DNA from: a virus
Reading direction: 5' to 3' (one strand)
Length of the DNA stretch: 20,312 nt
IMG/VR virus record: IMGVR_UViG_3300009786_001182
Coordinates: 1 to 20,312 of that record
In this document: in pieces, positions 2,614-12,323 of the stretch
Layout: each line of letters opens with the position of its first letter
Position numbering within the stretch: position 1 is the stretch's first letter
The notes under the pieces: generated by a model
What the model was told of the DNA's origin: nothing
Seen by the model: only the letters and a program-made list of their open reading frames with translations
Databases searched by the model: none
Made by a program: the position numbers and the translations under genes

Positions 2614-3432
2614 ATGACGCAACTAATAAATCCAAAAAAGTTTACTAACGCAGTGTCCCTATTGAGGGACTTTTTTTTGACTAAAGGCTTTGAAGAAGTA
2701 CATACCCAAAATAGATTGAGTATCTTAGCCGCTTGTGAAGATCCCGAAAACGTAGCAAGTTATAATTATGAAGGCCAAGTTTGGCCATTACCTCAAACTG
2801 GCCAGATGTGGCTAGAACATGAATTACTTACCAGCCCCGATTCAAAGGGGTTTTTTTGTGTTTCAACGTCATACCGACAAGAGCCTAATGCAATTCCTGG
2901 CAGACATGATACAATCTTTCCAATGTTTGAATTTGAAATGCCTGGAAATATAAATGATTTGAAAAGTATGGAATATGAACTATGTGAGCATCTAGGATTT
3001 GATGCAATTACAGAAAAGACCTATCGTGAATGGCAAAAACACTATGGTGCAAGTGCAGCTACAGAACTAGATGCACAACACGAATTAGCTATGCAAGCAT
3101 CATTTGGATCTTGTATGATTACAGAGTTTCCAGAGATGACCAGCCCGTTCTGGAATATGTCTAGAAATGAAGATGGCACAAGTAGAAAGATTGATGTTAT
3201 TCTAGGTGGTATGGAAACAATCGGTAGTGCCGAGCGTAGTACAGATAGAGATCAAATGAGAGATACGTTTCATACGATTTCTAACGGCGAATATGCTGGA
3301 CTCATTAAAAGTTTATTCGGAGATCAGAGGGTTGAGGATGAATTAGAAAAATTCTTAGAGTTTGATTTCTTTCCGAGAGTTGGAGGTGGCATCGGCATGA
3401 CTCGAATGATAGCCGCTCTAGAAACGATCTAG
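2614..3432 (+). CDS. Class IIb aminoacyl-tRNA synthetase catalytic domain (AsnRS/AspRS-like), no anticodon-binding domain
   Basis: A 272-aa protein with the class II synthetase core. Motif 1 lies in LLRDFFLTKGFEEVHTQ (about 16-32; the usual Pro is replaced by Gln). LPQTGQMWLEHELL (59-72) is the amino-acid/ATP pocket loop. Motif 2 is STSYRQE with Arg88 and Glu90, followed by HDTIFPMFEFEM. FPEMTSPFWNMSRNEDG (172-188) and ETIGSAER resemble the AsnRS/AspRS block before motif 3. Motif 3 is GGGIGMTRM with Arg264. Full AsnRS is about 430-470 aa with an N-terminal OB-fold domain; here the protein starts at the catalytic domain. It could charge the odd GUU tRNA 9 nt downstream, or act like the AsnRS paralogues and AsnA that make asparagine. 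Catalytic residues look intact. Two terminator-like hairpins lie inside the frame. Confidence 0.8.
   Translation: MTQLINPKKFTNAVSLLRDFFLTKGFEEVHTQNRLSILAACEDPENVASYNYEGQVWPLPQTGQMWLEHELLTSPDSKGFFCVSTSYRQEPNAIPGRHDTIFPMFEFEMPGNINDLKSMEYELCEHLGFDAITEKTYREWQKHYGASAATELDAQHELAMQASFGSCMITEFPEMTSPFWNMSRNEDGTSRKIDVILGGMETIGSAERSTDRDQMRDTFHTISNGEYAGLIKSLFGDQRVEDELEKFLEFDFFPRVGGGIGMTRMIAALETI
2655..2678 (+). terminator. Terminator-like hairpin inside synthetase gene (first)
   Basis: GTCCCT, loop ATTG, AGGGAC, then eight T residues: a perfect 6-bp stem with a U tract, in the 5' part of the coding frame (about codons 14-22). Its form is a textbook intrinsic terminator although it encodes SLLRDFFL. Confidence 0.6.
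2835..2857 (+). terminator. Terminator-like hairpin inside synthetase gene (second)
   Basis: CCCC, loop GATTCAAA, GGGG, then seven T residues, within the coding frame (around residues 75-82). A G-T and an A-T pair can extend the stem to 6 bp. It is weaker than the first, but again G+C stem plus U tract. Confidence 0.5.
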
Positions 3433-3441
3433 AGCGCATAG

Positions 3442-3548
3442 TCTGGGGTGGCGGAATTGGTAGACGCGCGGTACTGTTTATACCTTGAATATATACTACT
3501 ATAAATGTATATTTATTCGTGCAGGTTCGAATCCTGCCCCCAGAGCCA
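3442..3548 (+). tRNA. Unusual class II tRNA with GUU (Asn) anticodon, Leu-like body and long variable arm
   Basis: The acceptor stem is TCTGGGG/CCCCAGA (3442-3448 with 3538-3544), then G73 and encoded CCA (3546-3548). The D-arm GCGGAATTGGTAGACGC is typical of tRNA-Leu. The T-arm is GCAGG-TTCGAAT-CCTGC. The anticodon stem GGTA/TACC closes a 7-nt loop CTGTTTA, giving anticodon GTT (Asn codons AAC/AAU). The variable arm (about 3486-3519) forms a 10-bp helix with a 2-nt bulge, longer than normal even for class II tRNAs. GUU plus G73 are known AsnRS identity elements; tRNA-Leu normally has A73. Position 37 is U, where a purine is expected. The whole is 107 nt. It follows the synthetase-like gene by 9 nt and precedes the next ATG by 13 nt, so it is cut from an mRNA. 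Confidence 0.75.
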
Positions 3549-3561
3549 AAGGAAATAGCAA

Positions 3562-4428
3562 ATGATACCAGTAATTGATTTTAATGAACTTAATTTAAAT
3601 TCTCATATTGAAGATGCTTACGCTTCTGTAGGTTTTGCAGTTTTCATAAATTGCTTGACAAAACCAGAAAAATCTGATATGATTGAATGGTTCAGTGAGA
3701 TGAAAGAATTTTTTAATTTATCTGAAGAAACAAAGAAAGGGTATCCATATGAAGGCGACACTAATTTAGGCTATAGTATGGTAGGAGATGAAAACGTTGA
3801 TCCTACTGCACCTAAAGATATTAAAGAAAGTTTTAACTATAATAATAAACGTATGAATGAAAAACTTTGGCCAAGTGAACTTCCAAAATTTAAAGAAAGT
3901 GCATTGCGGAGTATTGAAATTGCAGATAGGCTTAGTCTTAGTATATTAGATAAATTCGACCAAATTTTAGATCCCGCAAGATCAACACTTGTAGATGCTC
4001 ATATGGAACCATATAATACGACAAGAGTAATTCACTATCCTGCATATGATGGTGAAATTGATGATAGACAAATGAGAATTGGAGAACATAGTGATTATGG
4101 AACAATTACACTATTATGGCAAATTAATGATGTTCCAGGATTAGAAGTTCAAGATTTAACAGGCAAGTGGCATCCTGTGCCATATAATGTTGATGGAGTA
4201 GTTGTGAATATTGGCGATTTGCTTCAGCGATGGACAAATGATCACTTTAAGAGTACTAAGCATAGAGTAGTTAATACACACATAGATAAAACTAGATTCA
4301 GTATGCCACACTTTGTTGATCCTACTCCAGGCACGATGGTAGAAAATATGAGAAGATTTGAGGAAGCAAAGTATGATCCGATTGAAAGTAAAGAATATTT
4401 GATGTGGAGACTAGCGCAAAGCTATTGA
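3562..4428 (+). CDS. 2-oxoglutarate/Fe(II)-dependent oxygenase, isopenicillin-N-synthase-like family
   Basis: A 288-aa protein of normal family length. The N-terminal DIOX_N-like segment begins IPVIDFNEL and continues GFAVFINC. The double-stranded beta-helix carries the metal triad His176-x-Asp178 (GEHSDYGTITLLWQ) and His234 (STKHRVV), with the 2-oxoglutarate-binding Arg245-x-Ser247 (TRFSMPHF). VVVNIGDLLQRWTND is the conserved strand before the distal His. These cytoplasmic enzymes hydroxylate, desaturate or cyclise small molecules using O2. The substrate is not recognisable. It starts 13 nt after the tRNA CCA end with AAAGGAA as ribosome site, and is followed directly by the dehydrogenase-like gene, so a role in modifying a nucleotide, sugar or amino acid is possible. 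Confidence 0.85.
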   Translation: MIPVIDFNELNLNSHIEDAYASVGFAVFINCLTKPEKSDMIEWFSEMKEFFNLSEETKKGYPYEGDTNLGYSMVGDENVDPTAPKDIKESFNYNNKRMNEKLWPSELPKFKESALRSIEIADRLSLSILDKFDQILDPARSTLVDAHMEPYNTTRVIHYPAYDGEIDDRQMRIGEHSDYGTITLLWQINDVPGLEVQDLTGKWHPVPYNVDGVVVNIGDLLQRWTNDHFKSTKHRVVNTHIDKTRFSMPHFVDPTPGTMVENMRRFEEAKYDPIESKEYLMWRLAQSY

Positions 4429-6517: not shown

Positions 6518-7166
6518 TGTAGCACACATCGTTGGTAATGGAAGAAACGCGGGTTTATATACACCAACAAAAGGTTTAAAAATTGCGTGTAATTATCCAC
6601 ATTCAGCAATTGATAATCTCTATGCAACAGTGATGGTAGATTTTAAAATGATGAAAGCTATTCATGAAGATAAGTTAACGATAGATGGTGATTGGGTATT
6701 AGGAGCAAGACCGAAAAAGTGGATGGAAATGCGTAATGATTTCCATATGAAATACGCTAGACAAATCAAAGAATTTTATTTAGTATTGCCAAAATATGCA
6801 CCCAATTATACAGATTTTAATTGTGGTCACATGGCAGTACACTGGGCAGCAAATAAACTTAAACGTGAAGAAATTCATATGTATGGATTTGATAGCATTT
6901 TTGGATTTGATATTACAAGCGCAGTTGATTTAATTCTACCGTCTCCACGAGACAATTTGAATACTCAAAGATTGACAGAGAACTGGCGCCCAATCTGGCA
7001 TCATATGTTTAGAGAATTTCCAAAGACAAACTTCATTATACATCAGCAGAAAGGGAACGCCCTGATAAAACTTCCAGATAATGTTGAAGTTAGGCGCCCT
7101 AAAGGAAAAGTAATGAGTCGAGAATTGACAAAAGATTCTTTTGAAAAACTTAGAAATTCCTCTTGA
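6510..7166 (+). CDS. Putative glycan-related transferase (DUF115/GT29-like)
   Basis: A 218-aa protein starting at ATG 6510, overlapping the previous stop by 8 nt. It begins ASVAHIVGNGRNA, a nucleotide-binding type loop, and contains HMAVHWAANKLKREEIHMYGFDSIF (split around residues 107-130), resembling the central part of DUF115 and sialyltransferase-like proteins in phages. No DxD motif is seen. Position at the end of the transferase run supports a glycan role, but function is inferred. Its stop TGA lies inside the TTGACA of the next promoter. Bases 6992-7038 are exactly repeated, inverted, at 19219-19265, where the complementary sequence codes for the start of another protein. Confidence 0.45.
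   Translation: MASVAHIVGNGRNAGLYTPTKGLKIACNYPHSAIDNLYATVMVDFKMMKAIHEDKLTIDGDWVLGARPKKWMEMRNDFHMKYARQIKEFYLVLPKYAPNYTDFNCGHMAVHWAANKLKREEIHMYGFDSIFGFDITSAVDLILPSPRDNLNTQRLTENWRPIWHHMFREFPKTNFIIHQQKGNALIKLPDNVEVRRPKGKVMSRELTKDSFEKLRNSS
6992..7038. repeat. 47-bp perfect inverted repeat, copy 1
   Basis: The reverse complement of this segment is identical over 47 nt to 19219-19265. Here it is coding on the + strand (residues about 162-176, around PIWHHMFREFPKTNFII). The flanking bases differ at both ends. Confidence 0.9.
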
Positions 7167-12137: not shown

Positions 12138-12256
12138 TATTTCATTTCACTTGTAAAGAGTGTAAAGGTTGGTGGTCTATCGCTACGATGGAATTGGATT
12201 GGAAGCCCAAACGACTATTTTGTCCTCACTGTGGGCATAAAGATAACGGAGTATAG
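12119..12256 (+). CDS. Zinc-ribbon microprotein without ATG start
   Basis: An open frame of 45 codons from TTG 12119. It contains HFTCKECKGWWSIA and RLFCPHCGHKDNG, a clear Cys-x2-Cys ... Cys-x2-Cys zinc ribbon of the kind seen in small phage proteins. There is no ATG before the ribbon: start options are TTG 12119, inside the previous gene's end, or ATA codons at 12134/12137. An in-frame TGA at 12113 bars anything further upstream. The stop TAG is at 12254-12256, so the last 10 nt are also the first 10 nt of tRNA-Pro. The ribbon is convincing; the start is not. Confidence 0.5.
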   Translation: MYQREIIFHFTCKECKGWWSIATMELDWKPKRLFCPHCGHKDNGV

Positions 12257-12323
12257 GCTAGTCTGGTAAGTCGCTTGCTTTGGGAGCAAGAAATCCGAGG
12301 TTCAAATCCTCGTACTCCGACCA
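12247..12323 (+). tRNA. tRNA-Pro(UGG)
   Basis: A canonical 77-nt cloverleaf. The acceptor CGGAGTA/TACTCCG has the proline-type C1-G72 pair and A73, with encoded CCA. The D-stem is GGCT/AGTC. The anticodon stem CTTGC/GCAAG encloses loop TTTGGGA, anticodon TGG. The T-stem is CGAGG/CCTCG with TTCAAAT. The first 10 nt overlap the zinc-ribbon coding frame, and a T4-type late promoter motif follows 1 nt after the CCA. Confidence 0.95.

Follow-up and report, generated by a model that had tools for sequence, protein, structure and literature searches.

Several described systems resemble parts of the locus analysed here, a gene for an AsnRS-like enzyme followed by a tRNA gene in a 20,312-nt stretch of viral DNA (IMG/VR record IMGVR_UViG_3300009786_001182; hereafter the window). 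The enzyme has the catalytic fold of AsnRS, a class IIb synthetase (Z 27 to AsnRS-Asn-AMP complexes), together with its Asn/ATP pocket motifs and motifs 2 and 3, but it is without the anticodon-binding domain, shares about 20% identity with AsnRS and scores 20 bits against the asnS cut-off of 343. The archaeal asparagine synthetase A (AS-AR, PRK06462) is likewise an AsnRS-derived core of similar length without an anticodon domain (Z 23.6); it belongs, however, to a different sequence family, for which the phage enzyme scores 18 against 389 bits. EpmA/GenX/PoxA, the EF-P beta-lysine ligase, is also a truncated class II core, EpmA serving a non-tRNA substrate (Z 24.0), but its amino-acid pocket differs, and relatives of the phage enzyme reach 17-22 bits against a cut-off of 287. 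In the PylRS/tRNA-Pyl system a synthetase core stands beside a structurally odd tRNA and the enzyme core does not read the anticodon, as may apply here, whereas PylRS is of another subclass and the phage tRNA carries the sense anticodon GUU, with no new amino acid evident. Finally, the CarAB-PyrB-PyrC route to dihydroorotate has unrelated folds, and an AMP-forming ligase chemistry is presumed for our enzyme, but in cells the enzyme family seems to occupy that same place in the pathway.

The homologue in phages P-SSM2 and P-SSM7 was named merely 'tRNA ligase' (T4-GC 194) by Sullivan et al. 2010 (PMC3037559), and the enzyme corresponds to PHROG_29758, a PHROG without known function. In the open-access literature searched we found no description of the enzyme-tRNA pair or of an AsnRS-like enzyme replacing PyrB, nor of a tRNA that throughout a large phage clade is strictly bound to a single enzyme gene and combines an invariant anticodon with an un-tRNA-like position 37. 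The locus represents an undescribed phage unit that is real, widespread and unexpectedly linked to nucleotide metabolism.

The enzyme is encoded on the plus strand at positions 2614-3432 and has 272 residues, which the ORF, Pfam and an AF2 model identify as a class IIb catalytic domain only. Its sole above-threshold Pfam match is tRNA-synt_2 (55.5 bits, residues 11-269). Against the NCBIfam AsnRS models TIGR00457 and NF003037 it scores 20-21 bits, with cut-offs of 343 and 414, and against the archaeal asparagine synthetase model (PRK06462) 18.4 bits, with a cut-off of 389; the AspRS and LysRS cut-offs are also far from reached. The AF2 model (pLDDT 93.3) comprises a complete AsnRS catalytic domain and leaves no residues over for an anticodon-binding domain; the N-terminal OB anticodon-binding domain is absent, and phage and cell relatives alike consist of the core only. 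The closest folds were the AsnRS catalytic domains 8h53 (Z 27.4) and 1x54 (Z 26.6), and AsnRS-Asn-AMP complexes ranked above AspRS, EpmA and archaeal asparagine synthetase A.

Four plus-strand segments carry the conserved features. The AsnRS-like substrate-pocket segment (residues 41-68, CEDP ... QTGQMWLE; positions 2734-2817) aligns with EGG ... SQLYLE of AsnRS; motif 2 (residues 88-109, RQEPNAIPGRHDTIFPMFEFEM; 2875-2940) is conserved in relatives and aligns with its AsnRS counterpart; the segment from E201 to R208 (ETIGSAER; 3214-3237) is equivalent to EIVGGSMR of AsnRS; and motif 3 (residues 257-264, GGGIGMTR; 3382-3405) is conserved in relatives. In 65 relatives, R88, E90 and R97-H98 of motif 2, R264 of motif 3 and the pocket residues E42, Q64 and E68 are invariant, as are E201 and R208. 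Seven of these residues (E42, E68, R88, E90, E201, R208 and R264) align with what we take, from general class IIb knowledge, to be the amino-acid and ATP ligands of AsnRS. These data show the enzyme to be the catalytic core of an AsnRS, retaining Asn- and ATP-pocket residues, so that Pfam, the AF2 model and the conservation in 65 relatives bear out the preliminary description of a class IIb core with motifs 2 and 3 intact and no anticodon-binding domain. The phage enzymes are strongly acidic (net charge -14 to -25) and differ from the cell enzymes at few conserved sites (N46, A93, S183, G198 and others). Many of them (e.g. L021, L022, L023, L030, L066 and L067) have short C-terminal tails reminiscent of ssrA-type degradation tags (ELAKAA, ALAKAA, FALAA or QEAA, for example); the enzyme of the window has none.

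A 9-nt spacer (3433-3441; 3-227 nt in relatives) separates the stop codon of the enzyme gene from a 107-nt class II tRNA on the same strand (3442-3548) with anticodon GUU, U1-A72, G73 and an encoded CCA, which is supported by Rfam and by covariation. The Rfam RF00005 match spans 3442-3545 with 43.2 bits; ARAGORN did not detect the class II GUU tRNA at 3442-3548. The acceptor stem is UCUGGGG/CCCCAGA with G73 at 3545, the D arm is of the Leu type, the anticodon (3476-3478) is followed by U37 at 3479, and the variable region forms a long arm of 35 nt (3486-3520). The first anticodon-stem pair is mismatched (C at 3469, U at 3485), a C-U mismatch unique to the window copy, all five pairs being formed in the other 72 distinct tRNAs. 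The size, spacing, anticodon, G73 and giant variable arm reported from first inspection are thus confirmed. In 20 enzyme-bearing cell genomes the tRNA model found no class II GUU tRNA, and its best match was an ordinary tRNA-Leu each time, which supports the proposed Leu-like body.

Searching IMG/VR with the enzyme returned at least 599 relatives, and among the matches listed the tRNA and the enzyme were both present in about 112 of 118 non-redundant phage loci, the tRNA always downstream and within the range of distances given above. A strict motif scan within 700 nt accounted for 106 of the 118, six further loci being assigned by a covariance model or by reading the sequence, or being cut at the contig end. 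In a search from the tRNA side, in which the anticodon arm was run against the collection and the enzyme then looked for nearby, the enzyme lay directly upstream in all 80 tRNA matches with room on the contig. On contigs without the tRNA beside the enzyme, mostly short fragments, it was not found elsewhere either. All tRNA-bearing enzymes fall in one phage clade of the tree (support 85), and the tRNA dates to the base of this clade, whose deepest members (L095 and L149) already have it, with several later losses. The enzyme also occurs, at 64-70% identity, in the Prochlorococcus phages P-SSM2, P-SSM5 and P-SSM7, each time beside a tRNA annotated as tRNA-Asn; in P-SSM2, whose 252 kb encode just one tRNA (PMC3037559 Table 1), that tRNA is the enzyme-linked GUU tRNA. 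When the enzyme of a megaphage (L005) served as query, no IMG/VR relatives were found.

The coupling of enzyme and tRNA is firm, and together they are an old, widespread phage unit. That the two form a functional unit, as had been proposed from the window, is strongly supported by the 80 of 80 adjacencies and by the presence of the tRNA at the base of the clade. The accompanying suggestion that the truncated enzyme reads the long arm was not supported, as the variable region is 11-39 nt long across relatives, which have no sequence in common there, and cell homologues without a class II GUU tRNA have almost the same motif 2 loop. A sporadic, decaying Leu tRNA occurring without the enzyme was rejected, since the helices covary, all 80 matches adjoin the enzyme and the anticodon is the same in every distinct tRNA.

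In 18 diverged relatives, 99.7% of the helix cells are paired and two-sided changes occur in 13 of 20 pairs, a covariation far above chance that none of 500 shuffles equalled. The anticodon is GUU in 73 of 73 distinct tRNAs, and U33, G73 and U1-A72 are each present in 72. The set of anticodon and G73 by which bacterial AsnRS recognizes its tRNA (PMC9976931) is thus complete apart from one copy (73/73 and 72/73), as is U1-A72 (72/73), which GatCAB reads in the tRNA-Asn of many bacteria (PMC4206432). In other respects the tRNA departs from bacterial tRNA-Asn: the class I body with a short variable loop is replaced by a long-armed body with a Leu-type D arm, and A37, the t6A site, is retained in only 10 of 73, the window having U. 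It departs from tRNA-Leu as well, with G73 and GUU in place of A73 and a Leu anticodon.

Position 37 is U in 60, A in 10 and C in 3 of the 73 distinct tRNAs, that is, a pyrimidine in 63, compared with 2 of 167 other distinct tRNAs from the same loci, the remaining 165 having a purine. U37, which the preliminary description had called odd, is therefore both real and general. Neither t6A nor m1G is possible on a pyrimidine at this position, so efficient decoding is seemingly not what keeps the anticodon under selection, and a non-ribosomal purpose, one of the uses considered at the outset, is favoured. The tRNA is under selection, though apparently not as a normal decoder. Individual copies deviate. 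In the tRNA of L069, which is possibly decaying or odd, U33 is replaced by G (loop CGGUUUA). The most divergent tRNA, in L149 (7077-7170), has GUU and U37 together with A73 and two acceptor-end mismatches and may be changing identity or decaying. In L091, positions 6866-6885 right after the enzyme gene, the place of the tRNA in relatives, hold only TCCGGGG-TC-CCCCGGA-GCCA, an acceptor stem with G73 and CCA from which the whole intervening part is deleted; this is either a minihelix occurring naturally or the result of a deletion in assembly.

A link of the enzyme family to pyrimidine biosynthesis in cells was unforeseen from the sequence of the window. A GTDB scan located cellular members, at approximately 50-60% identity, in Patescibacteria, Aureispira and its relatives, Flavobacteriia, Midichloriaceae, Pasteurella atlantica and DPANN archaea. 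Genes for dihydroorotate dehydrogenase, orotate phosphoribosyltransferase or OMP decarboxylase (pyrD, pyrE and pyrF; families checked) lie within a few kb in about 24 of some 70 cellular loci, and in Midichloriaceae the gene run is enzyme-pyrF-pyrE-pyrD-prs. Among 20 enzyme-bearing genomes, CarB was above the cut-off in one (G005), PyrB in none (two weak matches) and PyrC in none (sub-threshold matches in eight), and PyrF was found in 18, these genomes being mostly MAGs of unstated completeness; all 14 control genomes matched each of the PyrB, CarB, PyrC and PyrF families. Within the Aureispira order (120 genomes), seven genomes have the enzyme and 102 have PyrB, with no overlap, for which a hypergeometric estimate that ignores relatedness gives a chance of about 5e-7. 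The complementary phyletic pattern of the enzyme and CarB/PyrB is firm, the one exception being G005, in which CarB adjoins a divergent carbamoyltransferase. PyrC-like proteins are present in several Bacteroidota. Canonical AsnRS is also encoded in 12 of the 20 genomes, indicating that the enzyme is not needed there as an AsnRS. The pyrimidine link of the family is good, and a role in UMP synthesis is probable: since the cell members sit in UMP operons of genomes without CarB and PyrB but with PyrF, they probably supply the entry to dihydroorotate, and replacement of CarAB-PyrB at this point is the simplest inference. If so, the family would supply the start of the pathway that many Patescibacteria, Midichloriaceae and Aureispira-type bacteria otherwise lack, and would show how phages tap the pyrimidine pathway. 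In some bacteria (L114, L134 and L165) the enzyme gene adjoins argH (argininosuccinate lyase), and the L114 locus also has pyrE and a cytosine-deaminase-like amidohydrolase.

In phages, the link to pyrimidine genes is partial. Genes resembling pyrD or pyrE lie within 4.5 kb of the unit in 19 of 116 phage loci and prs in 4 of 116, and two loci have the order pyrD-enzyme-tRNA-pyrE. When loci were retrieved with a phage pyrE-like protein instead, 13 of 43 had the enzyme within 6 kb. Fourteen contigs bearing such pyrE- or pyrD-like phage genes were without the enzyme over their whole length, and P-SSM2 and P-SSM7 gave no match to the phage pyrD/pyrE-like genes.

Taken with less than even confidence, our preferred reading is that the phages carry an AsnRS-derived, Asn-activating enzyme with its own Asn-type tRNA, most likely for pyrimidine supply and not for general translation. 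The phage enzyme would perform the same chemistry as its cellular relatives from ATP and asparagine, for example by converting Asn, bicarbonate and ATP to dihydroorotate. Least certain is the part of the tRNA, which might receive Asn from host AsnRS through GUU and G73, or from AspRS followed by GatCAB reading U1-A72, and might then act as the dedicated Asn carrier or donor of the enzyme, its pyrimidine-37 loop and class II body perhaps excluding it from normal decoding. A host-charged carrier is favoured because the enzyme is without an anticodon-reading domain and GUU never changes while position 37 does. Stated in full, the proposal is a pyrimidine entry free of CarAB and PyrB by a truncated AsnRS, with an Asn-charged, non-decoding class II tRNA delivering asparagine in marine phages; as a whole we consider this somewhat unlikely, but if true it would constitute a tRNA-dependent step in nucleotide metabolism.

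The preferred reading has difficulties of its own. The AsnRS binding mode activates the alpha-carboxylate, from which no obvious path leads to dihydroorotate; were the mode reversed, as it is in asparagine synthetase A, the side chain would be activated, and the data favour neither mode. As the enzyme runs without the tRNA in cells and the tRNA was lost in several phages, the tRNA is not chemically indispensable. The absence of pyr-like genes from P-SSM2 and P-SSM7, the 14 pyr-like contigs without the enzyme, CarB with its divergent carbamoyltransferase in G005 and the PyrC-like proteins of Bacteroidota also count against it.

The alternative that survives best, although unlikely, is an orthogonal translation pair, in which the phage enzyme charges the linked tRNA with Asn via the acceptor end (U1-A72, G73), the tRNA decodes AAU and AAC during infection, and the cellular pyrimidine context reflects a separate function of the same fold. 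It is simpler than a host-charged carrier and agrees with the full AsnRS active site, with a tRNA that is never found without the enzyme, as expected for a cognate pair, and with the encoded CCA and the reported invariance of GUU, U33 and G73 (U33 and G73 at 72/73). However, the pyrimidine 37 in 63 of 73 tRNAs excludes t6A and m1G, the enzyme is very acidic and has no anticodon domain, and its motif 2 loop is common to the tRNA-less cell homologues; both position 37 and the family context, with cell members in pyrimidine operons, would be left unexplained. Were it correct, the unit would be of interest for orthogonal translation as a compact, naturally occurring pair of Asn synthetase and tRNA.

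A reading in which the enzyme makes a pyrimidine precursor, thereby draining Asn, and the tRNA is no more than an accessory for compensation or regulation that buffers or senses Asn charging is quite unlikely; it accords with the dependence of the tRNA on the enzyme and not the reverse but explains neither the altered position 37 nor why a Leu-type body was rebuilt when an ordinary tRNA-Asn could have been taken. Very improbable is a decoy, or a nuclease-resistant replacement, of host tRNA-Asn attacked by a host defence: the loss of A37 and the changed body could let the tRNA escape enzymes reading t6A37 or the normal tRNA-Asn fold, but strict dependence on one enzyme gene is not expected of a decoy. 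Charging of the long-armed tRNA by host SerRS or LeuRS, placing Ser or Leu at Asn codons, is hardly credible, since a long arm with G73 does turn leucine into serine identity in several systems (PMC9976931) but A73, essential for leucine identity (PMC9976931), is absent, and the invariant GUU, U1-A72 and the AsnRS-like partner indicate Asn. The mis-insertion of Leu at Asn codons that the preliminary description had raised is unlikely for the same reason, G73 taking the place of the key leucine determinant and GUU, G73 and U1-A72 being near-invariant, and was set aside.

Other frequent neighbours of the unit in phages were named from Pfam matches in the window and by eye, and represent associations only. 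They include a 2OG-Fe(II) oxygenase (plus strand, 3562-4428 in the window; 26 of 116 phage loci), a BMP/PnrA-like ABC transporter substrate-binding protein (plus strand, 799-1857; 24 of 116) and a Rieske oxygenase. Directly upstream of the unit the window has a ClpP-family protease gene (1949-2542), and a separate, ordinary tRNA-Pro (UGG) is encoded at 12247-12323.
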